24,357 nt of DNA from a virus. A model generated the notes under the pieces. The model saw nothing but the letters and a program-made list of their open reading frames with translations. It did no database searches and was not told the origin of the DNA. Numbering within the stretch: the stretch's first letter is position 1; each line of letters begins with the position of its first letter. Positions 3,710 through 18,632 of this stretch are shown piece after piece. The stretch spans positions 1-24,357 of IMG/VR virus record IMGVR_UViG_3300019360_000040; one strand, 5' to 3'. A program made the translations under genes and the position numbers.

Positions 3710-3959
3710 GAGATTTATCCTCCTCAGCCGCCCGTTCTGACCACTCGGAGGGCGGCGCTTCCAGTGAAATCTCTACGTCAGGGCGGGTGGCGTAGATTTT
3801 CAAATTTCCATTACGCAACACGCCCGCCTGCTCGTCCGGGATAGAGCGCGGGTCAATCCCCATGACCGCGAAGGCGCGGGCGGCGCGTTTTGCCTGCTGC
3901 TCCCACGCCGCGACGATGCGGGGTGAGAGCAGCACGTTGTCAAGTTGAATGCGCCGCAA
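3699..3959 (-). CDS. Hypothetical small protein, 86 aa
   Basis: A TTG start at 3959 is supported by AGGAGG 9 bases upstream, located in the last codons of the preceding gene, whose TAA ends only 2 bases before. The protein has a helical N-terminal half (LSPRIVAAWEQQAKRAARAF) and a short beta-like stretch (LRNGNLKIYATRPDVEISLE), ending in a charged tail. I do not recognise it. It sits in a tightly packed leftward operon (4849 down to 2197) and overlaps the next gene by 11 bases. Confidence 0.65.
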   Translation of the reverse strand: MRRIQLDNVLLSPRIVAAWEQQAKRAARAFAVMGIDPRSIPDEQAGVLRNGNLKIYATRPDVEISLEAPPSEWSERAAEEDKSHAP

Positions 3960-3961
3960 TT

Positions 3962-4849
3962 TTACAAACCTCCTAGGCGGCGCAAGGCTTCTCCAGCAGA
4001 AATTTTCGTCCTATTAGCTTCGATGAACTTGATTCCATCGACTACTCTAGCTTCTAGGCTAGAGCGAGGTGCAAACGGCACCTCAAAGCGTTTTTCTGTG
4101 CCCCCAAGCGCCGCTTGAAGCGGCAAGAATGGGACGATTCTATAGTATGAAAGTATTAGCGCACCTTCTTTCACTTCTATAAAACTGTTCTCCCTCCATC
4201 CTTCTCTGTAGTTAGGTATCTCTCGTATGTTACCTGCTATTATTGTATCGGGGATTACAGCTCCCCTGGTTTCGGCTTCGTTGATTACCGCTTGCCGGAA
4301 CTTATAAAACTGTTCTTTACTCAACGGCTTTGAGTGGTATGTATCATATTTTATAGGGCAATCTCGCGTTATAAGCCCTTTGAACAAACCCAACAATTCT
4401 CCATCCCCCAGCTTAGGGATTTTATCTATTCCTTTCAGGATTGCCTTCGCGCCGCGTTTCAGCACGTAAGCCGGAATGTTGTTGCTCAGGTAAAGGAATT
4501 TACGAGCCGGGTTGGCCTTTGCTCGCAATTCTTTTACCCGGGCGAGTCTTATACTCTTTTGCTTCTCTTTGGCCTCGTCAAAACTACAATCAAACGGGGC
4601 GATAATAATTTCCCCGCTAATTGATTGAAAACGAGCAAAAAGGTTGCTCTTGAATGGGCGGTGTGACCACCACACCCCGTCTATCTTCTGAATTTCAAAT
4701 TCTTGTCTTATTATTTTCTTGAAAGTTTCAGCAGCGACTGCCGCCTCTTCTTCCAGGGTGACTCTGTGGTTACCTATGTAATCAAAAATGCCCAGTACTT
4801 TGTCGGCTTGATATGTTTTGTTCGCCGTTATAGTGTATATATTTTCCAT
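3962..4849 (-). CDS. Hypothetical protein, 295 aa, first gene of a leftward operon
   Basis: I chose the ATG at 4849 (MENIYTITANKTYQADK) because GGAG lies 5 bases upstream. An ATG at 4870 would add seven residues but has no site. The protein is mixed alpha/beta with many Lys, Ile and Phe, and is lower in GC at the DNA level than its neighbours (for example 4130-4400 and 4540-4720), which hints at separate acquisition. I recognise no catalytic motif, membrane segment or signal peptide. Four genes follow within the same strand with 2-base gaps or overlaps (3959, 3709, 2771, 2541), so it probably heads that transcript. Confidence 0.75.
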   Translation of the reverse strand: MENIYTITANKTYQADKVLGIFDYIGNHRVTLEEEAAVAAETFKKIIRQEFEIQKIDGVWWSHRPFKSNLFARFQSISGEIIIAPFDCSFDEAKEKQKSIRLARVKELRAKANPARKFLYLSNNIPAYVLKRGAKAILKGIDKIPKLGDGELLGLFKGLITRDCPIKYDTYHSKPLSKEQFYKFRQAVINEAETRGAVIPDTIIAGNIREIPNYREGWRENSFIEVKEGALILSYYRIVPFLPLQAALGGTEKRFEVPFAPRSSLEARVVDGIKFIEANRTKISAGEALRRLGGL

Positions 4850-5103
4850 GCGTTCTCCATCCATCCGCATTCAGGGTCTCGGATGGTAGCCACTAAATTT
4901 CACACAAGCCGCGAGCCGCCTGTGAGACGGCAACTCTTATTTTCGCGGCATATATTGGCGTTCTGCCGGAGGCGGCGCTATACTCGCCTCCTATTCGTTG
5001 ACTGCCCCGCGGGGAATCCCTTTCGGGATGCTCTAACCGAGCAGGCTGGCGACTGTTACTCGCCGGAGCCACGCGGGGCATACATAATACTAAACGTAAC
5101 CTC
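4850..5103 (-). promoter_or_regulatory. Structured leader region between two leftward genes
   Basis: On the leftward strand this 254-base gap contains a hairpin CCCGAAAGGG, then CCCCGCGGGG, then CAACGAATAGGAGG, which resembles the leader plus ribosome binding site of the two cassette-driven genes. Here, however, the AGGAGG lies in a perfect 7-bp hairpin (GGAGGCG at 4991-4985 with CGCCTCC at 4974-4968) and no ATG follows at proper spacing. It looks like a degraded third copy of the leader whose gene is gone, or an RNA element controlling the downstream operon. A 62-codon open frame (4893-5081) crosses it, with an ATG 17 bases after a GGAGGT. I consider that frame unlikely to be a gene. Confidence 0.35.
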
Positions 5104-5631
5104 CTACACCACCGGGGCTGCCGGTCGGGCGTATTCAGTAGTATCGCAGTCGCCGGGATTGCGCTGCGAGCCAAGGTGCACCTCACGGCGGCGCAAACCG
5201 CAGACGGCGCAATGCGAGTTAAACTCCAGCGCCGTTCCGCCGAGACCCCAGACGCCTGGGTTCTCGGCGTTACCGCCCTCGCCCGCCGCCGTCCAGTCGT
5301 GGTCGTCGGGGGCGGCGCCGCATCCCTCACCGCCCATGACGGCGCGGATGAGATTTTCGTGGTTTGGCGGAATTTCGACTTCCAGCCGCTGCTCCGACCA
5401 CTCGGAGTCGTCGTCCTCCAAGCGGAAATAGGCGTTGACGACGCGGCCTTCGTCGCCGTCGTAAGAACCCTCTCTGACCCACTCCCGGGTTAGCCGTGCT
5501 GCCTGGAGCTGCGCCGCCGCATCCTGCTCGGACTCATCGCCGGCGGGAATGTAGAAGTAGTCGCAGTGGGACGCCCCGCTCTCCTCGCGGAGCGATACTT
5601 TGTATTCTCTCAAATCTCTCAAATCTCTCAT
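5104..5631 (-). CDS. Conserved phage zinc-ribbon protein, 175 aa
   Basis: The C-terminal part matches an unnamed family I know from phages and plasmids: HDW at 111-113, then ENPGVWGLGG at about 123-132, then H-C-A-V-C-G (140-145) and NPGDCDTTEY at 158-167. The CxxC pair plus later Cys/His suggests a small metal-binding fold, but no activity is known to me. The N-terminal half is acidic. The ATG at 5631 has AGGAG 7 bases upstream and is served by the second copy of the operator-in-spacer promoter, so it is probably an early, repressible gene co-expressed with 337-645. The first codons are a 9-base tandem repeat encoding RDL-RDL-RE. Confidence 0.8.
   Translation of the reverse strand: MRDLRDLREYKVSLREESGASHCDYFYIPAGDESEQDAAAQLQAARLTREWVREGSYDGDEGRVVNAYFRLEDDDSEWSEQRLEVEIPPNHENLIRAVMGGEGCGAAPDDHDWTAAGEGGNAENPGVWGLGGTALEFNSHCAVCGLRRREVHLGSQRNPGDCDTTEYARPAAPVV
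5607..5630 (-). repeat. In-frame 9-base tandem repeat at a start codon
   Basis: The unit CTCTCAAAT (plus strand) repeats almost three times and encodes Arg-Asp-Leu repeats directly after the initiator Met of the gene at 5104-5631. Because the period is a multiple of three, slippage would lengthen or shorten the N-terminus without changing frame. It may also keep the start region of the mRNA unstructured. Confidence 0.6.
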
Positions 5632-5636
5632 TTTAA

Positions 5637-5749
5637 CTCTCCTATTCGTTGATTTCCTTTTCAGGATAGCCCTATTCTATACTAACGGCGTTCGTATGTC
5701 AATAGGCAAATGCAAAAAACGAAATTATTTTTCGTGTCAAGGTTTTTAT
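5637..5749. repeat. Duplicated promoter cassette, copy 2 (direct repeat)
   Basis: This is the second copy of 652-765 with three differences. Its right boundary at 5749 abuts an open but headless coding fragment (5750-5881), so the cassette seems to have landed on, or recombined into, an older gene. The two copies flank the whole leftward block 765-5637. Recombination between them could delete that block. Confidence 0.93.
5674..5702 (-). promoter_or_regulatory. Sigma70-type promoter with operator spacer, copy 2
   Basis: Read leftward: -35 TTGACA (5702-5697, consensus), a 17-base spacer TACGAACGCCGTTAGTA (5696-5680) that is a palindrome, and -10 TAGAAT (5679-5674). The single T/C difference from copy 1 turns TTAACA into a consensus -35, so this copy should be the stronger promoter. 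It drives the gene at 5104-5631 through a leader of about 35 bases. Confidence 0.75.
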
Positions 5750-5881
5750 CGCCCGCAGTTCGGGCGTGTCGTCAAAACCGATTTGCCGCTGGACGATTAT
5801 CTGTACCGGGAAATGACGGAAATCATCCGGCACACCAACGAATTAACCCGGAGCCTCTACGATGCCCAAGACGATCTCTAA
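5750..5881 (+). pseudogene. 3' remnant of an unidentified rightward gene
   Basis: An open frame reads RPQFGRVVKTDLPLDDYLYR and on through a charged helix to TAA at 5879-5881. It looks like genuine protein (C-terminal helix with MTEIIRHTNELTRSLYDAQ), but it has no start, because immediately upstream is the promoter cassette repeat ending at 5749. It overlaps the start of the next remnant by 20 bases, as neighbouring phage genes do. The 5' part was therefore lost or replaced when the cassette arrived. The family is unknown. Confidence 0.5.
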
Positions 5882-5925
5882 ACTGTATCTGAAAAAAAAC
5901 GTGCTGGAAGCGGCGCGGGAGCGCT
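5862..5925 (+). pseudogene. 5' remnant of a PAPS-reductase/IbrA-like phage gene
   Basis: The ATG at 5862 has GGAG 8 bases upstream and begins an N-terminus, KTISKLYLKKNVLEAARER, that I associate with phage phosphoadenosine-phosphosulfate reductase-like (IbrA/DUF3440-type) proteins. Those continue into an SGGKDST ATP-binding loop. Here the similarity stops after about 21 codons and the frame runs into unrelated sequence, ending at a TGA near 5990. The SGGKD loop and everything after it are missing, so the gene is dead. The identification rests on a short N-terminus. Confidence 0.5.
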
Positions 5926-6015
5926 CGGCTGGGTGGTTACCAGAACGTCGGAATTCGCAGCGGAATTGCTGGCAGCCGCACCATCTGGATTGAGCCGGCT
6001 CTGGTCGGCGATTAG
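5923..6015 (+). pseudogene. 3' remnant of a second WIEP-tail gene
   Basis: In a different frame from the preceding remnant, codons 5932-6015 read GGYQNVGIRSG...SRTIWIEPALVGD and stop at TAG. This matches the C-terminal signature of the 313-aa protein at 2768-3709 (WRRGHFR...RRAVWIEPMLIG). The upstream 250 or so codons are absent. The junction with the IbrA-like remnant is around 5920-5930, which suggests an internal deletion that joined the start of one gene to the end of another. Confidence 0.55.
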
Positions 6016-6072
6016 CGCGGTTTTGAGCAAAAACAATTCTAGTATCCCGCCTTTAATTACATACCCCGAAAA

Positions 6073-6094
6073 AAAAGCGCTTGACGACGCTTTT
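6073..6094. terminator. Bidirectional terminator-like hairpin
   Basis: AAAAGCG (6073-6079) pairs with CGCTTTT (6088-6094) around an 8-base loop. It is preceded by a run of A and followed by T residues on the plus strand, so it can serve as an intrinsic terminator in either direction. It isolates the remnant region from the modification operon. Confidence 0.55.
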
Positions 6095-6122
6095 CAGGCT
6101 GTGTATCCTACGGTCAAGTACC

Positions 6123-6258
6123 AGCGGACACCTCCGCATTGCAGGCTGACAATTTACCATCTTTCTCTATCCCCTGAATTTTCAGGGTCGCCTTCAGGCG
6201 GTAAGTATCTGAGTTGAGCAGCCAAAATTCTCTTACCCGTCGTGTCTCTGCTCAACTC
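6123..6258 (+). promoter_or_regulatory. Cluster of hairpins upstream of the modification operon
   Basis: Four inverted repeats follow each other: GCGGA/TCCGC (6123-6136), CCCTGA/TCAGGG (6173-6188), CGCC/GGCG (6189-6200) and an 11-bp perfect pair GAGTTGAGCAG (6211-6221) with CTGCTCAACTC (6248-6258) spaced by 26 bases. No gene is visible between 6095 and 6294. The cluster could be a terminator series, a structured leader or a small RNA. I see no convincing promoter. A TACAAT sequence at 6291-6296 overlaps the start codon and cannot serve that start. Confidence 0.4.
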
Positions 6259-6294
6259 GCGGTCAATCACTCCTTACATTTTCGGCGCGGTACA

Positions 6295-6711
6295 ATGGCA
6301 AGAAATTTATCGGCGAAGAAGCAGGCGGACGTGCGCCGGCGCAAGCAGCGTCAGGCAGTCGTTTACGTCGCCCACCAGGCGGCTTTTTTGGCATCGTTGC
6401 GTGCCAGCCGCGAGTACCGGCGCTTGCAGGGGCTCACCAACAGCCCGGAACACGCCCTGATCGAGCGCAATCGCCGCATTGATGCCGAACGTAGCGCCGC
6501 GCATTATCGCTTTGAAGGAGCGCTGACCGCTACCAACTGGCACATCAGCGACGTGCCGGAGAACTGGCAATGGATAGACGACGTGCGCCATAAAGCGGCG
6601 GCTTACGACGAGGCGGTTGAACAACAGGCGGGCAAACGCCAATTGCGCCTGCTGCTCGGACGCCTGCACTATGCCGACCATCAGTTGCAGCAAACCATCG
6701 CGGCGGGCTGA
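6295..6711 (+). CDS. Hypothetical basic helical protein, 138 aa
   Basis: The first gene of the rightward modification operon begins at ATG 6295 (MARNLSAKKQADVRRRKQRQ). The ribosome binding site is weak (GCGG). The N-terminus is strongly basic, residues 25-60 are helical, and the C-terminal half is a long Gln/Leu/Ala-rich helix. No membrane segment or catalytic motif is seen, and I do not recognise the family. Its position directly in front of the ParB-like and dpdA genes makes an accessory role in the DNA modification pathway possible but unproven. Confidence 0.65.
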   Translation: MARNLSAKKQADVRRRKQRQAVVYVAHQAAFLASLRASREYRRLQGLTNSPEHALIERNRRIDAERSAAHYRFEGALTATNWHISDVPENWQWIDDVRHKAAAYDEAVEQQAGKRQLRLLLGRLHYADHQLQQTIAAG

Positions 6712-7061: not shown

Positions 7062-7665
7062 ACGGCTGCCGCTTGCCGGAATCAAGCTGGAGCCGCAGAA
7101 CTGCCGCCGTCATGCTGAGCGCAATATCGCCACCATCAAAGCCAGCCTTGAGCAATTCGGGCAGCAAAAAGCGATCACGATTGATTATCGCAACTGTTGT
7201 CTGGCAGGCAACGGCACGGTGATTGCCGCCCGCGAACTCGGCTGGACGCACATTGACGCCTGCCGCTCGGCGCTGCGCGGTAAAGATGCGCGGGCGTATA
7301 GCATCGTAGATAATCGCGCCAGCGACCTCAGTGAATTCGATTTTGAAGAGCTAGCCGGACACCTTAAAAGCCTGAAAGCGGCGAACTATAATTTGCAGGC
7401 GCTCGGCTGGGAAGCGCATGAAATTGAGCCGTTGCTGAAAGCCACTTGGACGCCGCCGCCGCTCGCAGAATTACCGACGCGAACCGCAACAACGGAAAGC
7501 CTGTCGGATGAAGACCGGCAGGTGATTGACGAGGCGATCAGCCACTATCGGAAAAGCCACGCCGGACTGACCGACAGCGAATGTCTGGCGCGTATCTGCC
7601 GGTTCTATCTCGACCATGCCGGAACCAAAAAACTCAAGCGGGCAGCTTCCGGCGCTACTGGTTAG
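7024..7665 (+). CDS. ParB/sulfiredoxin-like protein adjacent to DpdA, 213 aa
   Basis: Residues 10-140 form a ParB-like nuclease/N-terminal domain: VERLPLAGIKLEPQNCRRH, then a helix with IKASLEQFGQQKAITID, then AGNGTVIAARELGW (61-74, the equivalent of the ParB GHGR box, here GNGT) and the IVDNRASDLSEFD segment (94-106). This form is common in phage ParB-like proteins. The C-terminal part (155-213) is helical with a basic end. The start at ATG 7024 is preferred over 6994. It overlaps dpdA by 50 bases. In bacterial dpd islands the DpdA transglycosylase works with DpdB, which I recall as carrying a ParB-superfamily domain, so this may be the phage counterpart. The alternative is an unrelated DNA-binding or nuclease role. 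Confidence 0.8.
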   Translation: MATRISKPQLKVERLPLAGIKLEPQNCRRHAERNIATIKASLEQFGQQKAITIDYRNCCLAGNGTVIAARELGWTHIDACRSALRGKDARAYSIVDNRASDLSEFDFEELAGHLKSLKAANYNLQALGWEAHEIEPLLKATWTPPPLAELPTRTATTESLSDEDRQVIDEAISHYRKSHAGLTDSECLARICRFYLDHAGTKKLKRAASGATG

Positions 7666-8365
7666 CTATGTCTACGGCAAGCGGTTTCTGAAACGCCGCC
7701 CTGAACTCGACTACCGCGATTGGGTCTTGGATTCCGGCGCCTACTCCGCTTTTAATAGCCAGATTGAAATTCGCCTCGATGATTACATCGTATTCGCTCG
7801 TCAGCAAATCGAAACCGACCCGACGCTCTCGGAAGTCTTCGCGCTCGATGTGATCGGCGATTATCGCGCCAGCCTCCGAAACACCGAAACGATGTGGAAG
7901 GCGGGCGTCCCGGCGATTCCGTGCTATCACTACGGCGAGCCGGAATGGGTCTTGAAGGAGATTGCCGCGCAGTATCCGAAAATTGCGCTAGGCGGTTGCG
8001 CCCGGGTGCCGGTAGAAACCAAAGTGCAGTGGTCCGCGCAAGTGTTTGCGCGGGTATTTCCCAAACGCATTCACGGCTTCGGCTTCGGCGGCGACCGCTA
8101 CGTGCGCGAATTGCCGTTTCATTCCGTTGACTCGACAAGCTGGGTAATTCAGCCGGGTCGCTACGGCAAGTGGCGGGCTTTCGGCAACCGGAAACTTCGC
8201 AGCCGCTCGGTCTCGATGCTGGCGGAAATCGAATGGTACTTACGGCTCGAACGCGAGGCGCAGGCGCGGTGGGCGGCGGTGATGCGGCAAATGAACACGA
8301 CGGGTCCGGCGGTACGGCTGGCGGTATCGTCAACGCAACTCAAATACTTCGTCAAAGCAGCATGA
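7616..8365 (+). CDS. dpdA: DpdA-type DNA 7-deazaguanine transglycosylase, 249 aa
   Basis: DpdA proteins are relatives of tRNA-guanine transglycosylase that swap guanine in DNA for a 7-deazaguanine. Visible hallmarks are WVLDSGAYSAFN (37-47) with the active-site Asp at 39, EVFALDVIGD (73-82) with a second conserved Asp, PCYHYGEP (102-109), IALGGCARVP (123-132), the phosphate-binding-type IHGFGFGG (152-159) and VDSTSW (171-176). The CxCxxC zinc site of canonical TGT is absent, as expected for short phage forms. Start ATG 7616 lacks a strong ribosome binding site but is the only in-frame one, and it is coupled to the ParB-like gene. The gene overlaps queC by ATGA. Together with queC/D/E and folE it forms a self-contained DNA modification pathway. 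Confidence 0.88.
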   Translation: MPEPKNSSGQLPALLVSYVYGKRFLKRRPELDYRDWVLDSGAYSAFNSQIEIRLDDYIVFARQQIETDPTLSEVFALDVIGDYRASLRNTETMWKAGVPAIPCYHYGEPEWVLKEIAAQYPKIALGGCARVPVETKVQWSAQVFARVFPKRIHGFGFGGDRYVRELPFHSVDSTSWVIQPGRYGKWRAFGNRKLRSRSVSMLAEIEWYLRLEREAQARWAAVMRQMNTTGPAVRLAVSSTQLKYFVKAA

Positions 8366-9045
8366 CAGAACGAACAGGCAGGGTCTTGCTTTATTCCGGC
8401 GGCATGGACAGCTACGCCCTACGGCGATTATGGAAGCCGGACGTAACCCTCTATATCAATCTCGATACCGCATACAGTGAACGCGAAATCGCCCGACTCG
8501 ACGCCGGCGTTACCGTTATTGACTGCCCGACTCTCCGGCAATTCGAGCGCCCCGATAAGATCATTCCGTTACGGAACCTCTTTCTGGTCTGTTTTGCAGC
8601 ACAATTCGGCACACGCATCGCCATCGGCGCTACTGCCGGCGACCGGGTACGTGATAAAGACGAAAAATTCGCTGCCGCGACGAGTAAACTCCTCCGCTAT
8701 ATCTGGCAGCCGGATCACTGGACAACCGGCAAACCAATCTTCGTTGAACTGCCCTTTAAGCAGTATACGAAGGCGCAAATCGTCGGGGCATTTATCCGCG
8801 ACGGCGGCGATCCGCAGGAATTGGCAAGCCGCAGCTTCTCCTGCTACCAGCCGACTGAAGACGGGCAGGAATGCGGCGCGTGCAAACCATGTTTCCGCAA
8901 ATGGGTGGCGTTCAAGCTGAACGGCATCGAGATTGAGCCGTCGGCGCGACCTTATATTGAACGCGAAATCCTGCCGCTGATTCAGGCGGGCAGTTACGGC
9001 AGAGCCGAGGAAGAGCAGGAAATTTTACAGGCCTTGGCGTTATGA
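8362..9045 (+). CDS. queC: 7-cyano-7-deazaguanine (preQ0) synthase QueC, 227 aa
   Basis: QueC uses ATP and ammonia to convert 7-carboxy-7-deazaguanine to preQ0. The N-terminal ATP loop is SGGMDS (12-17), NLDT follows at 33-36, and the C-terminal zinc site is complete: C161, C171, C174 and C177 in CYQPTEDGQECGACKPC. Length is normal for the family. The ATG overlaps the dpdA stop (ATGA), and the gene's own stop overlaps queD the same way, so dpdA, queC and queD are one translationally coupled unit. No glutamine amidotransferase fusion is present, so the cyano product should not be taken further by this protein. Confidence 0.95.
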   Translation: MTERTGRVLLYSGGMDSYALRRLWKPDVTLYINLDTAYSEREIARLDAGVTVIDCPTLRQFERPDKIIPLRNLFLVCFAAQFGTRIAIGATAGDRVRDKDEKFAAATSKLLRYIWQPDHWTTGKPIFVELPFKQYTKAQIVGAFIRDGGDPQELASRSFSCYQPTEDGQECGACKPCFRKWVAFKLNGIEIEPSARPYIEREILPLIQAGSYGRAEEEQEILQALAL

Positions 9046-9428
9046 GGTGGCGACTCGAGAAAGAGTTTCGCTTTGAAGCGGCGCATCAATTACCGGATCA
9101 CCATGGCAAATGCGCCAGATTGCACGGACATAGTTGGCGTGGCGCGTTGATTTGCGAAGGCGATGAATTACAGCAAGAAGGCAGCAGCGCCGGAATGCTG
9201 GTGGATTACGGCGAGATGAGCGCCGCCGTCAAGCCTTTGGTCGAAAATTATCTTGACCATTTTTTCCTCAACGATTCGCTAGACCTCGAAGCGCCGACTT
9301 CCGAAGTGATCGCGCAGTGGATTTACCGGCGCATCAAGCCCGCCTTGCCGGCGCTGGCGGCGGTCAGGATTGAGGAAACTTGCACTTCCGCCTGTATCTA
9401 CAGCGAAGCGCACTCACCTAACGGGTAG
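9042..9428 (+). CDS. queD: 6-carboxy-tetrahydropterin synthase QueD, 128 aa
   Basis: QueD converts dihydroneopterin triphosphate, the FolE product, to 6-carboxy-tetrahydropterin. The zinc ligands are visible as H15 (AAHQLPDH), H28 and H30 (LHGH). The catalytic Cys is C24 in HGKC, and the Asp72-His73 pair (LDH) and the Glu of EETC (111-112) complete the active site. PTSEVIAQWI at 85-94 is the usual signature helix. The ATG overlaps the queC stop. The gene ends the rightward unit and is followed by a 9-bp hairpin. Confidence 0.95.
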   Translation: MRWRLEKEFRFEAAHQLPDHHGKCARLHGHSWRGALICEGDELQQEGSSAGMLVDYGEMSAAVKPLVENYLDHFFLNDSLDLEAPTSEVIAQWIYRRIKPALPALAAVRIEETCTSACIYSEAHSPNG

Positions 9429-9431
9429 TAA

Positions 9432-9460
9432 AACGCTGTCTAGCTGTAGCTGACAGCGTT
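9432..9460 (+). terminator. Terminator-like hairpin after queD
   Basis: AACGCTGTC (9432-9440) pairs with GACAGCGTT (9452-9460). Inside the loop AGC/GCT pair again around TGTA. No long T-run follows directly, though TTTTTT appears at 9478-9483. It closes the ParB-dpdA-queC-queD transcript before the convergent ribbon-helix-helix gene. Confidence 0.65.
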
Positions 9461-9471
9461 CGATTTGACTG

Positions 9472-9636
9472 TTATGGTTTTTTGGCGTTCTGATTGCCCG
9501 CCGGCGCGCCCGACTTGCGCGCGGGTAATCCAAGGGCGCGACGCACATAACCGGATACGGATAAACCGGCGGCTTGCGCTTGCGTTTTGAGGAGCCGTAG
9601 CTCCTCGTCAGTCAACGAGAGTAAAATGCGCCGCAT
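9472..9636 (-). CDS. Ribbon-helix-helix-like small DNA-binding protein, 54 aa
   Basis: This short leftward frame reads MRRILLSLTDEELRLLKTQA then QAAGLSVSGYVRRALGLPAR, a typical ribbon-helix-helix layout: one short strand with basic residues, helix 1 (TDEELRLLKTQAQAAG) and helix 2 starting at S-V-S-G-Y-V-R-R-A-L. The tail is Lys/Ala/Gly-rich. It is the third gene of the HNH operon, with a TAATG overlap of the preceding stop. It may autoregulate the divergent promoter region at 10208-10268, which contains palindromic repeats, but that link is inference. Confidence 0.75.
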   Translation of the reverse strand: MRRILLSLTDEELRLLKTQAQAAGLSVSGYVRRALGLPARKSGAPAGNQNAKKP

Positions 9637-9830
9637 TAGAGGGTTTCTCCCGTCGTCTGGCTGCGGAGCAAACTTATTTGCCCGCTCTCAGCAATCGAAT
9701 AATACCGGCGGCGCGTCGGCTCTTCGCAGCGCACAGTGACGACGCGCCGCGCGGTAAAAACGGCAAGCTGATTATCCGGCGATAAGGTCTCGCGGATGCG
9801 CTGAACTGCTAGTTGCTGATGGTGGTTCAT
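9636..9830 (-). CDS. Hypothetical small protein, 64 aa
   Basis: The ATG at 9830 overlaps the HNH stop (ATGA), and TGGAGG lies 4 bases upstream, so the start is secure. The protein is MNHHQQLAVQRIRETL..., then a beta-like stretch (NQLAVFTARRVVTVRCEE) and a second one (RRRYYSIAESGQISLL). I do not recognise it. It is the middle gene of the three-gene leftward cassette. Confidence 0.65.
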   Translation of the reverse strand: MNHHQQLAVQRIRETLSPDNQLAVFTARRVVTVRCEEPTRRRYYSIAESGQISLLRSQTTGETL

Positions 9831-10207
9831 TTTGCCTCCACTTCAGCGTCGCCTACTTTATCGGAAAAATAGGCTTTCGCTAATTTTATATAAGGTTTCA
9901 AGCTACGCCTGACATTGCGCCGGATGTGGGCGCGGGTGGCAGCCGAAGCAAAGCGGTTAAGCGGCGTGTCCTGACGGCGGCTATTGCAACTGCGGCAAGC
10001 CGTTATGAGGTTTGTCTCGTGGTTCGCGCCGCCGTCAACGCGGCAGACGAGATGGTCGAGGGTGATGTCACGGGGGTCAGCGCCGTGCAAATCGCGCAAA
10101 CAATAGATGCACGTCATATTGTCCCGTAAATTGATGGCGAGCCGCTTTTCAGGGCGTATCCAATTGCCGCCACTCAATTTCTTGTACCCTTTAACCTTCG
10201 TTCTCAT
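9827..10207 (-). CDS. HNH endonuclease, 126 aa
   Basis: The HNH fold is clear: C33-x2-C36 (CIYC), the catalytic DH pair D51-H52 in ITLDHLVCRVDGG, N66 in HETNLITA, then C71-x2-C74-N75 (CRSCNSRR). Basic regions flank the domain. I chose the ATG at 10207 and not the longer open frame reaching 10558, because the extension runs antisense through queE and a promoter (TTGCAA, 18 bases, TATAAC) sits directly in front of this ATG, leaving almost no leader. The cassette separates queD from queE in inverted orientation, as a homing endonuclease or moron would. It could be a free-standing homing enzyme or a packaging/defence nuclease. Confidence 0.88.
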   Translation of the reverse strand: MRTKVKGYKKLSGGNWIRPEKRLAINLRDNMTCIYCLRDLHGADPRDITLDHLVCRVDGGANHETNLITACRSCNSRRQDTPLNRFASAATRAHIRRNVRRSLKPYIKLAKAYFSDKVGDAEVEAK

Positions 10208-10268
10208 AATCAATGTTATATCATATTGATTTAGGAGATTGCAAGAACAATGTGATATAAGATTGATT
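10208..10268. promoter_or_regulatory. Divergent promoter pair built on a 23-bp inverted repeat (HNH and queE-folE)
   Basis: The 23 bases at 10208-10230, read leftward, match the 23 bases at 10246-10268, read rightward, at 20 positions. Each copy contains an extended -10 element (TGATATAAC leftward, TGATATAAG rightward) and is itself an imperfect palindrome with AATCAAT/ATTGATT-type arms. A TTGCAA at 10239-10244 gives the leftward promoter a -35 with an 18-base spacer. The rightward one has only the extended -10. One regulator could bind both copies and control the endonuclease and the preQ0 genes together. Confidence 0.65.
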
Positions 10269-10283
10269 TTTTTTTGAAAAAAA

Positions 10284-10892
10284 TTGAAAACCTTTGCCAT
10301 TAACGAGATCTTCCTGAGCCTACAGGGAGAAGGGGGACGAGCCGGAACCGCCAATGTATTCGTGAGATTTGCCGGGTGCAACCTACGTTGCGCCGCCGAC
10401 AGCCCGGAAGAAAACGGGCAATTTGATTGTGATACGGAGTTTAGCGGCGGCAGAAAATTTACGGTCGCGGACTTGCTCGCGGAAGTTGAGCGCAGTAGCG
10501 GAGCGTGTCGCTGGGTAATCCTGACCGGCGGCGAACCGCTTTTGCAGGTTGACACCAATTTGCTGGCGGCGCTACACGACGCGGGTTACCAGATTGCGGT
10601 CGAAACTAACGGGACACAGCCGTTGCCGGTCGGGCTAGATTGGGTGTGTGTAAGTCCGAAAACTGCCGAACACACTCTAAAAGTTTATGAAGCCGATGAG
10701 GTCAAGTACGTTCGTCACGCCGGACAAGCGTTGCCGAAGCCGACTATAAAAGCCGCGCATTATTTCCTCTCGCCCGCCTGGGACGCACACGGCTTGAACC
10801 GCGACAACCTGGCGTGGTGCATCGAACTCGTAAAAGAGAATCCGCAGTGGAAACTTAGTCTACAGCAGCATAAATGGTGGAAAATCCGCTAA
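10284..10892 (+). CDS. queE: 7-carboxy-7-deazaguanine synthase QueE (radical SAM), 202 aa
   Basis: QueE is the radical S-adenosylmethionine enzyme that turns 6-carboxy-tetrahydropterin into 7-carboxy-7-deazaguanine. The N-terminal EIFLSLQGEGGRAGTANVFV and the cofactor-binding LTGGEPLLQ (80-88) are typical. The cluster cysteines are C32, C36 and C49 (GCNLRC, then FDCDTEF), that is CX3CX12C. The usual motif is CX3CX2C, so ten residues are inserted before the last Cys. The start is TTG at 10284, forced by an upstream in-frame TGA. It has no Shine-Dalgarno and follows a T- and A-rich leader of about 16 bases. The gene overlaps folE by 19 bases. Confidence 0.92.
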   Translation: MKTFAINEIFLSLQGEGGRAGTANVFVRFAGCNLRCAADSPEENGQFDCDTEFSGGRKFTVADLLAEVERSSGACRWVILTGGEPLLQVDTNLLAALHDAGYQIAVETNGTQPLPVGLDWVCVSPKTAEHTLKVYEADEVKYVRHAGQALPKPTIKAAHYFLSPAWDAHGLNRDNLAWCIELVKENPQWKLSLQQHKWWKIR

Positions 10893-11449
10893 CTCCAACA
10901 TTACTTATTCAACAAGCCGTGCGGCAGATTATCGGGGCGCTCGGTGAAGACCCGGCGCGAGATGGCTTAACCAAAACGCCGTCACGGGTGGCTCGCGCCT
11001 TTGAAGAGCTTACCTCCGGCTACACACAGAATCCTTCGGTTATTCTGGCCTCGCAATTCGACAATGAAGATTACGACGAGATGATCATCGTGAAGGATGT
11101 GGGATTCACCTCGCTTTGCGAACATCATTTGCTGCCGTTTACCGGCTTTGCCACGATTGCCTATATCCCGGCGCACGATAAAATCGTCGGCATCTCAAAG
11201 CTGGCGCGACTGGTCGAATGCTTTGCCCGCCGCTTGCAGGTGCAGGAACGTATCACTACGCAAATCGCACACGCGATTAACGAGAACCTCATGCCGCAAG
11301 GTGTCGGCGTAATCGTCCGGGCGACGCATTCCTGCATGGCGATTCGCGGCGTTCAAAAAGCCGCCGAAACCGTCACGAGTTGTATGTTGGGAGCGTTTCG
11401 CGTGGATGCCGGAGCGCGCGCTGAATTGATGGCGCTGGCGAAAAACTAA
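10874..11449 (+). CDS. folE: GTP cyclohydrolase I FolE, 191 aa
   Basis: FolE opens GTP to dihydroneopterin triphosphate, the first step to both folate and preQ0; here it feeds QueD. Key residues are the zinc ligands C82 and H85 in LCEHHLLPF and C154 in ATHSCMAIRG, with H152 and the VGISKLARLVE helix (105-115) also conserved. Length and order match the type IA enzyme. The ATG lies inside the last codons of queE, so the two are co-translated. The 3' end overlaps the convergent gene at 11446 by 4 bases and has no obvious terminator. Confidence 0.96.
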   Translation: MVENPLTPTLLIQQAVRQIIGALGEDPARDGLTKTPSRVARAFEELTSGYTQNPSVILASQFDNEDYDEMIIVKDVGFTSLCEHHLLPFTGFATIAYIPAHDKIVGISKLARLVECFARRLQVQERITTQIAHAINENLMPQGVGVIVRATHSCMAIRGVQKAAETVTSCMLGAFRVDAGARAELMALAKN

Positions 11450-14157: not shown

Positions 14158-15441
14158 ATGTCATTGTGGAATTCCGTTAAAGGCGCGTTTCGGCGCGCCA
14201 CCGTGGCCTTCAGTATTGTCCCGAATTACTTTGCCAATGTTCGCTGGCTGATTTCCAGTCAGTACTTGAACCTGGTTAAGGAGGGCTATAAAAAGAATTC
14301 CGTCGTTTATTCTTGTGTACGTCTGCTGTCGCAATCAGTCCCTGAAGCGCCATTAAAATTCTACCGGCAAAATGATGGCATGGAGACCGAAGCGCCGGAG
14401 CATGAATTCCGTGAGCTTATCCGCCATCCGAATGCGCTGCAAACCGAGTACGAATTCTGGGAACTCACGGTTATCCAGCTCTCCATGGTTGGACAGTCCT
14501 ATTGGTGGAAGCAGCGCGGCAAAAGCGGGCGAGTGATCGCCCTCTGGCCCCTCAGACCCGACCGCGTTACGCCGATTTACACGAATCAGTTGCCACCGCT
14601 GCAAGCGTGGTATTACAACCTGGAAGGCACACTTTATGAGCTTCCGGCTGATGATGTTCTGAACTTCAACTACCCTGACCCTGATGATGTAACCGGCGGC
14701 ATTGTGGAAGGTTTTGGACCGGCACAGGCGCTCAGGCGCGATGCCGATATTGACAATCAGGCGACGCGCTTTGCCTTCGCTTTGTTGAATAATTACGCCA
14801 TGCCTGGCACGGTGCTGACCACGAAAGCCAAGCTGGACCAAAAGCAAGCCGATGAGTTGAAAGAGCGATTTGCCCGCAAATACGGGCAAATGCATATCGG
14901 CGAACCGGCGGTCATTGACGGCGATACGACGATCCAGCAGCTGTCATTTAATCTCCGCGATTTGCAATTCAGTGGACTGCGCGATAACGATGAAGCGCGA
15001 ATCTGCGCGGGCTTTGGGGTCCCGGCGGTTCTGGTAGGCGTTAAAGTTGGGTTGGAAAAAGCTCACTTTTCCAACCAGCGGGAGGCACGCGAGTTTTTTG
15101 CCGAGACGACGCTGTCGATTCTCTGGACTAGGCTTGCCGACCGCATTAACGCCGACCCGGATTTCAGTGAGCCTAATTTACAGGCGCGCTTTGATACCTC
15201 GAATGTCCGCTCCCTGCAAGGACAGCATAACGAACATGCGACCCGTTATTACGACGGGCTGAAACTCGGCGCCGTAACCATCAATGAATATCGAACCAAA
15301 GGTTTGCGCCTGCCGTCCTTGCCGGATTGTGATGTCCGGGTAATGCCGACGACGTTTATGGAGGTTGGCGATGGCGGGCTGCCCGTGCTGCCGGTGGTTG
15401 ATGAGCCGGTGAAGCCAAATGGCGCGGCGAAGCCGAATTAG
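14158..15441 (+). CDS. Portal protein (HK97-type), 427 aa
   Basis: Twelve copies form the ring through which DNA enters the capsid. Recognisable portal features are NSVVYSCVRLLSQSVPEAPLKFY at about 43-65, WWKQRGKSGRVIALWPLRPDRV at about 119-140, the YELPADDVLNFNYPD segment, QQLSFNLRDLQFSGLRD with DNDEARICAGFGVPAVLVG at about 260-295, and the later LADRINADPDF. The C-terminal tail is Pro- and Val-rich. It is close-packed between terminase and protease as in HK97-like phages. No clear ribosome binding site is visible, so it may be coupled to terL. Confidence 0.95.
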   Translation: MSLWNSVKGAFRRATVAFSIVPNYFANVRWLISSQYLNLVKEGYKKNSVVYSCVRLLSQSVPEAPLKFYRQNDGMETEAPEHEFRELIRHPNALQTEYEFWELTVIQLSMVGQSYWWKQRGKSGRVIALWPLRPDRVTPIYTNQLPPLQAWYYNLEGTLYELPADDVLNFNYPDPDDVTGGIVEGFGPAQALRRDADIDNQATRFAFALLNNYAMPGTVLTTKAKLDQKQADELKERFARKYGQMHIGEPAVIDGDTTIQQLSFNLRDLQFSGLRDNDEARICAGFGVPAVLVGVKVGLEKAHFSNQREAREFFAETTLSILWTRLADRINADPDFSEPNLQARFDTSNVRSLQGQHNEHATRYYDGLKLGAVTINEYRTKGLRLPSLPDCDVRVMPTTFMEVGDGGLPVLPVVDEPVKPNGAAKPN

Positions 15442-15517
15442 GACGAGTATATGGTGATTGAAGCTGGCGCAATGTATTCTTGCTAAATCGTCTTGCGGAC
15501 ATTTTCACCAAACCATA

Positions 15518-17251
15518 ATGAACTATTCCTCCACGCAGTTTGAACTGCCGGATTATCTCGCCAAAAAGGTGCGCCGTTTGGGAACAGGCATCCCCGACGA
15601 TGAACTGGCGGCGGACGGTCGTGAAGCGCTCACCCATATCACCGTCAAATACGGCATCCACACGACGGACGTGGAGCTGGTGCAGCTTACGCTCGATAAG
15701 CAAGCGCCAGTCGCCGTGACGTTCGGCAAAACCGCGCTGTTCAAAGCCTCGGAGTCGGGAACCGATGTTGACGTGCTGTATGTTTCGGTTATCAGCCCGG
15801 AACTGGAAGCCCTGAACCAAAAACTAACCGAGCGACTGGCTCATACCACGACGCAATCATCTTATGTGCCCCACATCACAATTGCCTATCTCAAAGCAGG
15901 TGAAGGCGAAAAATATGTCGGCAGCGAATTTCTTGCGGCGCAGGAGTTTACCTTTACCCTTCTGACGTTTGCTGCTTCTGACGGGAATCGCTATTCGATT
16001 TATCTGAGCAACGACGGAGTAAAAACAATGTTTGAAGCAGTCAAATTCACCAACGACGAGAAGACGGAAATCACCGGACCGGGCATCCCTTTCGGCGGGC
16101 CGTTTAAGAACCGCGCTGGCGAAGATTCCGATTTGCATGGTGAGTTTTTCACCAAGAATACCAACTTTGCCTTTGATTGGTTCCAGGAGCGTCCGCTGCT
16201 TTACCAACATGGCAAAGACAATGACGTAAAGCTGGTTCCGGTCGGGCGCGTCAAGAGCTGGATGGTCGGCGACAAAGCCGTCACCACGCAAGCCATTCTC
16301 GATAAAAATAGCGAATACTTTGAGGCGATCCGGGAGGCGGTAGATAAAGGCGGTCTCTACTTCTCGTCCGGCGCCATGGGGCATCTGGTGCAGATTGACA
16401 AGCAGACTGGTGAGATTAAGACCTGGCCGTGGGTCGAACTCAGTCTCACGCCGACACCCGCCAATTTCTACGCCTCGGTGGATTTCGTCACAGCGCAAAA
16501 GCATTTCAAAGACGCCGGCATCGAATTCAATCTGACCGACCCTGCTGCCGACAAGCAACCTGCCGATAAAAAATCGTCCGGGCGGCTGGTCATTGCCGGC
16601 GTAAAGAGCCTCTTTGACGACGTACTGGCAGAGATCATGGAGCCGGATATGTGGCAACTTTATAACGCCTACATTCGGGTTGTCTGCCAGATCAAGCAAC
16701 TGCATGGTGTCACGGAAGGCACATCCGTGTCTATAAATCCGGAGGCTATGCTAGATGAAGCTGTGGCGCAATTTATGGGGCTGTTGCGTGAAGTCTCCCT
16801 CAAGTTTATCAGCGACGAGTCGGATAATTATTACCCATACCGGAGCGTCGAACTCGAAAAAATCAAAGCGCTAATTGACGCGAAACAAGACGGGGCGATG
16901 GTGCGCCTCAGTCTGGTGGACCACTCCGCTGCGGTGATGGCTGCCAACGAGGAGTTATTCGGGCGTGTGAAGGTAATCTGCACCGAGCGAGTAAAGGACG
17001 GCCGGGTGTTATCGGCGGCAAACCGTGACAAGCTGCGAACCTTGCATACCAAGATCGGCGAAGCGCATTCGCAGATGGGTGACCTGCTGGACCAGACCGA
17101 ACCGAAGAAAGCGGAAGCAGAAATGGCTGATAAGATGATAGAGCAGCCGGACAGTAAAAAGTCCGATGGCGCTCTATTGCTCAAAGCCCGCGCGCTATCG
17201 TTATTGGCATTTCAGAGCGGCGATGCCGCAACGGAGATAATCAATGATTAA
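15518..17251 (+). CDS. Fusion: 2H phosphoesterase - prohead protease - scaffold, about 577 aa
   Basis: Three parts lie in one frame. Residues 1-170 are a 2H phosphoesterase domain with two HxT motifs, H40-I-T42 (ALTHITVKYGI) and H119-I-T121 (YVPHITIAYLK). Residues 171-330 are a head maturation protease: H231 in LLYQHGKDNDVKLVPVGRV, the GGLYFSSGAMGH motif with Ser283/284, and WPWVELSLTPTPA at 303-315. Residues 330-577 are a helical scaffold-like region ending in RVLSAANRDKLRTLHTKIG-type coiled coil. ATG 15518 (MNYSSTQFELPDY) is preferred; TTG 15458 would add 20 residues. An internal ATG at 16028 with a good ribosome binding site would give protease-scaffold alone. The 2H fold is shared with phage Acb1, which cuts CBASS cyclic nucleotides. 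The substrate here is unknown. Confidence 0.88.
   Translation: MNYSSTQFELPDYLAKKVRRLGTGIPDDELAADGREALTHITVKYGIHTTDVELVQLTLDKQAPVAVTFGKTALFKASESGTDVDVLYVSVISPELEALNQKLTERLAHTTTQSSYVPHITIAYLKAGEGEKYVGSEFLAAQEFTFTLLTFAASDGNRYSIYLSNDGVKTMFEAVKFTNDEKTEITGPGIPFGGPFKNRAGEDSDLHGEFFTKNTNFAFDWFQERPLLYQHGKDNDVKLVPVGRVKSWMVGDKAVTTQAILDKNSEYFEAIREAVDKGGLYFSSGAMGHLVQIDKQTGEIKTWPWVELSLTPTPANFYASVDFVTAQKHFKDAGIEFNLTDPAADKQPADKKSSGRLVIAGVKSLFDDVLAEIMEPDMWQLYNAYIRVVCQIKQLHGVTEGTSVSINPEAMLDEAVAQFMGLLREVSLKFISDESDNYYPYRSVELEKIKALIDAKQDGAMVRLSLVDHSAAVMAANEELFGRVKVICTERVKDGRVLSAANRDKLRTLHTKIGEAHSQMGDLLDQTEPKKAEAEMADKMIEQPDSKKSDGALLLKARALSLLAFQSGDAATEIIND
16016..16030 (+). promoter_or_regulatory. Internal ribosome binding site and start codon inside the protease fusion
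   Basis: GGAG (16016-16019) stands 8 bases before an in-frame ATG (16028-16030) exactly at the border between the 2H domain and the prohead protease. This spacing is better than at either candidate start of the full-length fusion. It predicts that most protease-scaffold is made without the 2H domain and that the full-length protein is a minor product. Confidence 0.7.
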
Positions 17252-18632
17252 AGAGATTCAGAAAAAATTACAGACGGAAATGTCTGCCATTAAAGCCATC
17301 ACCGATCGCTATGCCGGTAAATCCGAGGATATGACCGAGGAGGACCGGCAGCAACTCATGCAGCATGTCACCAAGGGTGAAGCCTACCGCCAGGAGATCG
17401 AATCGTTGCAGAAAGCCGAGGCGTTGAAAGAATTCGCCGATGAGCCTGCTTCCACTCTGCCGCTGGCTGGCATTCAGGCGCAGCCCGGACAGATCAAGAT
17501 GGAAGGCAGTTATGAATCGGGGCTGACGGTGTTTGAGCGCGAGTTCAATAACCGCGACCGCGTGGCGCGTGAAATCCGTATGGCGTATGAGGAAGGCGAA
17601 TGCCGGGTTGATGATAAGACGCTGGCGGCTACCTCCACCAAAGATTACCGGGATTCCTACCGCGCTTATCTGCGAAAGGGGAAAGAAGGCGTCACCAGTA
17701 ATCAATTGAAGACCCTTCAGGAAGGCTCGGATACGGCAGGTGGTTTCCTGGTGCCGCCCGATATCCTCAACCGCGTCATTGCCAAAAAGCCGACGCCGAC
17801 CAGGATTGCCGGACGAGTGACGCGCTTACAGACCATGCGTGACCGGCTGCTCATCCCCAAGGTCAATTACACGACCGATGACCTGTACACCACCGGCATT
17901 CGCGTCACCTGGACGGGTGAAATCCCGGCGTCGGCAACCACGCATCGCGTCACCGACCCGATCTTTGGGCAGGTGGCGATTCCGATTCACACCGCCATGC
18001 TGTCGATGCCGATAACCAACGACATGATCGAAGACAGCAGCTTTCCGCTGGTGGAATGGTCAAGCGGCAAATTCGCCGAGACCATTGATTTACTGTACGA
18101 CAATATGATCCTGAATGGCAACGGCATCGGGCAGCCGTTCGGTATTCTCAACAATCCCGGTGGCGCTAATCAACCGGCGGTGGTGGTTTCAACCAACGGC
18201 TCGGCGGTCACCTGGGCCGGCTTGCAGAACATCGCCTTTGCGGTGCCGGAGCAGTACGACGACGACTGTGTATGGATCTTCAATAAAACCAGCACGGCGC
18301 TCGCCATCTCCAAGTTGGTAGACGGACAATCGCGCCCGTTCTGGAGCATGGGCTATGAAGACAGCGGTTTGATTCCGTCAATCAAGAATCGCCCGTTACT
18401 CGGCTACCCGGTGCTCTATAGCGGCTTTGCCCCGAATATCGCCGCCAATGCCTTTCCTTACATCTTCGGCGATCCGAAGGGCTACTACCACGTTGACCGC
18501 ATCGGCTTCTCGATTCAGGTGTTGAATGAACTCTACGCCGAATCGAATCAGAAACTGCTGCTCGGACGTGTCCGCTTTGGCGGGCAGGTTGCAGAAGACT
18601 GGCGGTTGAAGATCGGCAAATGCAGCGCCTAA
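17244..18632 (+). CDS. Major capsid protein (HK97 fold), 462 aa
   Basis: The N-terminal ~110 residues are a charged coiled-coil delta domain (KEIQKKLQTEMSAIKAITDR and so on), normally removed by the prohead protease. The HK97 core follows from about GSDTAGGFLVPPDILNRVIA, with TRLQTMRDRLLIPKV, the A-domain region, LYDNMILNGNGIGQPFGILN and the terminal strands LLLGRVRFGGQVAEDWRL. The gene overlaps the protease fusion by 8 bases, so it is translated in coupling with it. Two hairpins follow the stop. Confidence 0.95.
   Translation: MIKEIQKKLQTEMSAIKAITDRYAGKSEDMTEEDRQQLMQHVTKGEAYRQEIESLQKAEALKEFADEPASTLPLAGIQAQPGQIKMEGSYESGLTVFEREFNNRDRVAREIRMAYEEGECRVDDKTLAATSTKDYRDSYRAYLRKGKEGVTSNQLKTLQEGSDTAGGFLVPPDILNRVIAKKPTPTRIAGRVTRLQTMRDRLLIPKVNYTTDDLYTTGIRVTWTGEIPASATTHRVTDPIFGQVAIPIHTAMLSMPITNDMIEDSSFPLVEWSSGKFAETIDLLYDNMILNGNGIGQPFGILNNPGGANQPAVVVSTNGSAVTWAGLQNIAFAVPEQYDDDCVWIFNKTSTALAISKLVDGQSRPFWSMGYEDSGLIPSIKNRPLLGYPVLYSGFAPNIAANAFPYIFGDPKGYYHVDRIGFSIQVLNELYAESNQKLLLGRVRFGGQVAEDWRLKIGKCSA

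Follow-up and report, generated by a model that had tools for sequence, protein, structure and literature searches.

In bacteriophage lambda, the prohead protease-scaffold gene contains an in-frame internal start that yields a second, shorter product, so that gpC is accompanied by Nu3, the scaffold alone; this arrangement was reportedly described by Shaw and Murialdo in 1980. The internal head proteins of phage T4 (IPI) and Alt reach the head through targeting sequences and are injected with a role in countering host systems, and the internal proteins are trimmed by the prohead protease, which shows that protease-trimmed head cargo can be injected.

A broader frame is provided by the polyvalent proteins of invasive elements, defined as single proteins that combine at least two disparate domains (PMC5512222). 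In the same study, Iyer et al. (2017) located 2H phosphoesterase domains in polyvalent proteins, including fusions to MuF and portal proteins, and assemblin-like peptidases at the C-termini of such proteins; the 2H domains were proposed to act as RNases or to degrade defence nucleotides, and the injection of T4 Alt was also described (PMC5512222). MuF and portal are the simple partners named in the passages on these fusions, which contain neither a direct 2H-prohead protease gene nor an internal start. In addition, the phage 2H enzyme Acb1 was characterised in 2022 as an anti-CBASS enzyme (PMC9117128).

Here we analysed a single contig of an uncultured tailed phage, an IMG/VR virus record of 24,357 bases (the window), in which one gene is predicted to join a 2H phosphoesterase to a prohead protease and scaffold. 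Its product combines a 2H domain with a C-terminal assemblin-like peptidase, both of which are listed in the 2017 study (PMC5512222), and thus has the domain make-up of a polyvalent protein. In both cases the 2H domain is joined to head-interior proteins of terminase-portal phages, and the packaging, injection and action on RNA or defence nucleotides predicted in that study resemble the cargo role proposed below. A literature search, mostly outside subscription papers, found no paper on a gene combining a 2H domain with a capsid or prohead protease, the nearest being Iyer et al. (2017). To the known 2H domains on portal, MuF and polyvalent proteins, the window adds one joined to a prohead protease with a putative internal start. 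The initial annotation, made from the sequence alone, knew of no description of the combination. This has to be narrowed: portal and MuF proteins fused to 2H, as well as injected proteins with assemblin-like peptidases, were described in 2017 (PMC5512222), and public phage genomes contain 2H-protease fusions that have gone without comment.

Structure of the fused gene

The frame at 15518-17251 is free of stop codons and translates into 577 amino acids, with the 2H phosphoesterase at the N-terminus, followed by the assemblin-like prohead protease and the scaffold (Table 1). The single frame joining these parts and the HIT tripeptides at residues 40-42 and 119-121, both proposed in the initial annotation, were confirmed by translation, by the PF13563 match of the first part and by the membership of the second in a protease family with invariant His and Ser. 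As no stop separates the two parts, every translated 2H domain would be joined to the protease. The order portal, fused protease gene, major capsid gene is that expected of an HK97-type prohead protease. Since relatives carry 2H on the portal, we weighed whether a programmed frameshift might lead from the portal gene to the 2H part, but a TGA in the 2H frame at 15455-15457, beyond the portal stop, rules this out. When the entire fused protein served as query, direct protein search recovered no relatives among cellular genome contigs and one among viral contigs; the relatives of its parts discussed below were reached via alignments. The searches brought up no close relative of the window, the best capsid identity being 55-56%, and PADLOC gave no result on the window.

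Table 1. Positions of the fused gene's predicted features and of the neighbouring genes in the window.
Feature	Position	Strand	Basis
Possible extension of the N-terminus by 20 codons, should TTG 15458 be the start; otherwise untranslated	15458..15517	+	Open frame, weak SD
2H phosphoesterase domain, residues 1-169 (predicted)	15518..16024	+	PF13563, AlphaFold2, Foldseek
First HxT catalytic motif, HIT, residues 40-42	15635..15643	+	No variation at H40 or T42 across 65 aligned sequences
Second HxT catalytic motif, HIT, residues 119-121	15872..15880	+	H119 invariant, T121 at least 90%, 65 sequences
GGAG, putative Shine-Dalgarno (SD) of the internal start	16016..16019	+	Duplex energy -6.1
TAA in the +1 frame, between SD and ATG	16020..16022	+	Read directly from the sequence
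Assemblin-like prohead protease domain (predicted), residues 171-320; internal ATG 16028-16030	16028..16477	+	Alignment, Foldseek, PHROG 7015
Candidate catalytic His (protease His61)	16208..16210	+	Invariant among relatives
Candidate catalytic Ser (protease Ser113)	16364..16366	+	Invariant among relatives
Helical scaffold-like C-terminal part with DGRVLSAANRDKL motif, plus stop	16598..17251	+	Common to relatives; predicted long helices
Portal protein gene, neighbour	14158..15441	+	PF04860, E 2e-66
Major capsid protein gene, 8-nt overlap with the end of the fused gene	17244..18632	+	PF05065, E 8.5e-37

The 2H part matched PF13563 at 42.6 bits against a cut-off of 27 (E 8.4e-11), and the LigT, AKAP7 and Acb1 Pfam models matched it more weakly. 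An AlphaFold2 model, built on an alignment with 61 relatives whose rows came from our loci only, recovered the 2H fold with a pLDDT of 96.8 and a pTM of 0.90. All Foldseek matches to this model, namely CPDase, YjcG, Usb1, LigT, Acb1 and the poxvirus cGAMP phosphodiesterase, are 2H enzymes, the top ones at a probability of 1.00. The PF13563 and Foldseek matches bear out the earlier reading of residues 1-170 as a 2H phosphoesterase, and the HxT motifs, whose loss in homologs would have spoken against it, are kept across the 65 aligned sequences (Table 1). Residues 1-169 are thus predicted to form a 2H phosphoesterase with the 2H fold and apparently intact catalytic motifs.

The protease half alone had no Pfam match, and its matches to head-maturation-protease PHROGs, PHROG 7015 among them, were weak (E 1e-4). 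Within 43-44 aligned protease relatives, His61, Ser113, Trp133, Thr141 and Pro144 are invariant. Herpesvirus assemblins lead the Foldseek matches (probability 0.9-0.99 for the first five, E about 0.01, with a whole-model pTM of 0.43), and T4 gp21 also appears, at a lower rank; a PDB sequence search by the protease profile returned coiled-coil noise only. Based on the PHROG and Foldseek matches, the invariant His61 and Ser113 and the portal-capsid gene setting, the second part of the gene is assigned as an assemblin-like prohead protease plus scaffold, the identity of the protease being predicted at the family level. The scaffold part with its DGRVLSAANRDKL motif is shared by L050, L056, L073, L091, L094 and L098. 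A small domain (MPW.V...GCH.S..EA..QM.ALY) recurs ahead of the window-type protease in L094, L098, L126 and L287, which points to the protease N-terminus as a general attachment point for extra modules.

The GGAG at 16016-16019, followed after an 8-nt spacer by ATG 16028-16030 in frame at residue 171, is present as the initial annotation described it, and the ATG falls where members of the protease family naturally begin: L091, L095 and L120, which are free-standing relatives, start with M..AVKF or M.AVKF, and the window reads MFEAVKF from residue 171. No other in-frame start codon listed for 15458-16300 has as good an anti-SD energy as this ATG (-6.1), which comes close to the major capsid gene start (-6.6). 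An energy of this order is reached by some 5-10% of the ATGs on the strand, so the SD site alone is modest evidence; stronger evidence comes from the free-standing relatives that begin there, because of which ATG 16028 is probably the ancestral protease start, predicted to be still usable. The true 5' start of the fused gene, ATG 15518 or TTG 15458, is uncertain, because ATG 15518 lacks an SD (energy +2.4) and the frame stays open upstream as far as TTG 15458, which has a weak one (-3.0). Given this poor ribosome site at the 5' start, the fused product may be scarce. Two products from an in-frame internal start are workable, as lambda C/Nu3 makes them, and this is a precedent for the two products from one gene that the initial annotation included in the combination; in the window, however, the predicted short product would be the protease-scaffold without its 2H cargo.

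Recurrence of 2H domains on head proteins

A profile scan of IMG/VR viral contigs recovered 467 relatives of the window 2H domain, and a scan of 84,980 cellular genomes, run with patterns that were a little stricter, gave 10; the window-type 2H domain is therefore mainly viral. Stand-alone genes of 2H size occurred at only about 9 of the 80 loci fetched from these 467, the other domains being parts of larger proteins. According to Pfam, the partners in 27 2H-bearing proteins, a set that also took in L087 and L108 from a different scan, include portal proteins (three families and the Mu type), MuF, S78 protease and Zeta toxin. The portal is the carrier in L050, L056, L073, L020 and L079. In the first three of these, 2H is the C-terminal part of the portal, or nearly so, and the protease/scaffold and capsid genes lie just downstream, which is the window's gene order with the cargo on the neighbouring carrier. 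The family also occurs in two giant multidomain proteins (L001 3589-12459 and L003 923-5017), one with apparent methylase and helicase regions and the other, gp321 of Tunturiibacter phage Tunturi_5, with parts that by eye resemble a metallopeptidase, an ADP-ribosyltransferase and an acetyltransferase.

Fusions to proteases were found in several forms. By following the capsid gene, we found L108, in which 2H precedes a window-type protease, and L087, in which S78 protease, 2H and scaffold occur in that order, so that 2H must travel with the protease and scaffold between which it sits. A strong SD in L108 (ATG 4784) was considered as a second nested start and was dropped, as one in about 14 in-frame start codons is expected to show such a site by chance. 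The window's own 2H subfamily lies at the C-terminus of an apparent protease-scaffold in L074, where the protease part was assigned by motif and position, Pfam and PHROGs having detected only 2H. The homolog survey proposed in the initial annotation was extended to a sister 2H subfamily, in which 2H and a protease share one frame at 25 of 80 loci (21 of 67 non-redundant), with XkdF-type proteases in 18, S78 proteases in 5 and window-type proteases in 2, and 2H and portal are joined at 27 of 80; these counts are based on HMMs built for this analysis (E <= 1e-3), a subset being confirmed with Pfam. Every non-redundant protease fusion in this subfamily retains both HxT motifs. Overall, the 2H domain occurs N-terminal, internal and C-terminal in such fusions.

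A window-type protease is fused to an N-terminal 2H domain in L108/L282 and L287, which resemble the window in this respect but carry the sister 2H subfamily; the exact pair, the window's 2H subfamily N-terminal to its protease family, is absent from close relatives. In L287, one frame of 934 amino acids (3830-6631) comprises an N-terminal domain, 2H, window-type protease, scaffold and, in addition, the major capsid protein. Where the capsid part begins, a strong SD (-8.5) is followed by an in-frame ATG (5129), and this predicted start could give the capsid protein alone. L287 is, as predicted from its frame, the window's design of fused gene and internal start taken one gene further.

Comparable fusions are also present in isolated phages. 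Arthrobacter phage Edmundo gp18 (QGJ88092.1) and Microbacterium phage ValentiniPuff gp7 (AYD87311.1) consist of 2H and Peptidase_S78_2, a fusion family represented by PHROG 14859, and provide cultured examples. Like the window gene, Laroyevirus gp18 (Edmundo being one case) and ValentiniPuff gp7 place an N-terminal 2H domain before a prohead serine protease in one gene, which adjoins the portal and MuF genes. Unlike it, they have a 2H domain of the sister subfamily, an XkdF-type (S78_2) protease and another genome layout. They are annotated only as protease or RNA ligase: depending on the record, Laroyevirus gp18 (L116 3399-4511 and homologues) is called "RNA ligase", "aldolase class I" or "capsid maturation protease", so that one domain or both go unmentioned, and labels of this kind hide the second domain of such fusions. 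In Streptomyces phage YDN12, gp12 combines MuF and 2H with other regions, and its annotation reads protease-MuF fusion.

Possible substrates of the 2H domain

The initial annotation had raised both Acb1, as a phage 2H enzyme that destroys cyclic nucleotides, and action on RNA ends. In a PDB profile search with the 2H family, the best match was Acb1 of Burkholderia phage BCSR5 (E 7.5e-8), followed by plant CPDase (1.6e-5), YjcG (5.5e-4), FBB1 Acb1 (9e-4) and the LigT-type structure 5h7e (0.24), and hhalign placed T4 Acb1 (P 2.5e-5) ahead of E. coli ThpR/LigT (1.8e-4). Because both orders put Acb1 first, albeit by small margins, Acb1-like cleavage of cyclic oligonucleotides appears the single most likely chemistry, before RNA-end or RNase activity, although a cyclic nucleotide as the actual substrate can be proposed only tentatively. 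The Acb1 link thus stands in part: 10 of 27 2H relatives matched the Pfam Acb1 model at E <= 1e-3 (best E 1.2e-8), but the window 2H domain itself reached 15.6 bits with this model (PF23474), under the cut-off of 27, and the Foldseek TM-scores do not set Acb1 apart from CPDase, YjcG, Usb1 and LigT. Acb1 uses the aromatic base-stacking residues Y12, W74, F107 and W147, together with E141 (PMC9117128); in an alignment that spans the central part only, the window domain has no aromatic residue at the F107 position. Acb1 (T4 gp57B, FBB1, BCSR5) and the window 2H domain share the 2H fold, the HxT/HxT tetrad and a phage origin, whereas the solved Acb1 proteins are small and single-domain.

The domain may instead be a Usb1-like RNase or an RNA 2',3'-cyclic phosphodiesterase that acts on host or phage RNA, either borne by the virion or made late in infection. 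Such a role is possible but doubtful. The Pfam name of PF13563 is 2_5_RNA_ligase2, the top Foldseek matches include CPDase (5h7e, 1jh6), YjcG and Usb1 at TM 0.5-0.68, and RNase function is what Iyer et al. proposed for portal- and MuF-fused 2H domains (PMC5512222). Against this, the profile is nearer to Acb1 than to CPDase or 5h7e, and T4 Acb1 ranks above ThpR/LigT in hhalign, the differences being modest. Simple RNA repair is disfavoured by the reported absence of 2H from RNA-ligase contexts (PMC5512222).

In the T4 genome, acb1 (gene 57B) directly adjoins ipI, an internal head protein gene (L210 1592-2411, corresponding to T4 73591-74410).

Possible delivery of the 2H domain and alternative explanations

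We propose, with a probability of roughly 50%, that the fused gene encodes a prohead protease-scaffold carrying an active 2H enzyme as N-terminal cargo, which would be taken into the prohead and probably delivered with the DNA. The upstream start would produce some fused 2H-protease-scaffold, and the stronger internal start would supply the bulk as plain protease-scaffold. The fused form would co-assemble in the prohead via its scaffold part, where the protease would cleave the shell scaffold and probably also the 2H linker. The 2H enzyme would then remain in the head, enter the next host with the DNA and degrade a small nucleotide or RNA that serves host defence. Fusion to the protease would thus stand where T4 IPI and Alt have targeting sequences.

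Support for cargo comes from the carriers, which are head-interior proteins (portal, MuF, proteases and a 2H-protease-capsid polyprotein) in addition to the giant multidomain proteins, and from the three kinds of protease (S78, XkdF-type and window type) that bear 2H. The retention of HxT motifs in 65 relatives across different carriers, and in the protease fusions, argues for an active enzyme. The presence of 2H relatives on capsid-interior proteins of many phages suggests a head-carried, ready-made form of counter-defence. The absence of a fused 2H domain from the other 80 nearest protease loci counts against cargo. Entry of the fused 2H domain into the prohead is probable, whereas its delivery to the host has about an even chance. 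Once cleaved, protease and scaffold largely exit the head in HK97-like phages, and hence a freed 2H domain might not stay inside.

The fusion may also be recent and neutral, the stop of a 2H gene having been lost just before the ribosome site of the protease gene, with a passive 2H domain and functional protease coming nearly all from the internal start. The linker of only about five codons, the intact SD and start of the protease, and the 2H-bearing portal with a separate protease gene in L050, L056 and L073, which have the same gene order, would all be expected on this account; moreover, since two adjacent genes share a frame by chance in 1/3 of cases, in-frame continuity alone is little proof of a functional joint. 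It is nonetheless distinctly unlikely, as 2H is found joined to proteases of three or more families, whether N-terminally, internally or C-terminally, and L108 and L287 join 2H to the window's own protease family. The joint could also reflect an indel in 16010-16019 that masks the stop of a free-standing 2H gene: GGAG-TAA-N5-ATG has the form of a typical gene junction in the +1 frame, and the window is a single uncultured contig without a close relative. However, the conserved tail of the 2H domain (TFAASDGNRYSIYLS) still reads in the fused frame as far as about 16009, so that an error would have to fall within roughly 10 bases, and because comparable fusions exist elsewhere, isolated phages included, an intact frame is likelier and a one-base error very improbable. 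Finally, the 2H fold might serve as a module for prohead assembly or targeting, its chemistry being irrelevant. Its attachment to several head proteins and the capacity of 2H folds to bind nucleic acid or nucleotides are compatible with such a role, but structure alone would not need the two HxT motifs, which persist on many unrelated carriers, and the role is therefore quite improbable.

If the 2H domain is indeed delivered as cargo, capsid maturation would double as the loading and release of counter-defence enzymes, and the breakdown of immune signals could start before any phage gene is expressed. In its most far-reaching form, which we consider rather unlikely, the proposal would have capsids pre-loaded with 2H enzymes as a virion-borne counterpart of Acb1: brought in by fusion to the protease or portal and freed by the protease, they would destroy cyclic-oligonucleotide alarm signals as soon as the DNA enters, and the internal start would determine how much armed relative to plain protease is made. 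With 2H recurring on three types of protease, on portals and MuF and in a capsid polyprotein, what began as one odd gene becomes a rule that can be tested in cultured Arthrobacter and Microbacterium phages.

Other features of the window

Positions 7616-11449 of the window hold a 7-deazaguanine cassette with QueC (PF06508), QueD/PTPS (PF01242), a QueE-like radical SAM protein and GTP cyclohydrolase I (PF01227), which suggests that the phage DNA is modified. The ORF at 7616-8365 (249 amino acids), which has no Pfam match, resembles by eye a phage DpdA-type transglycosylase.
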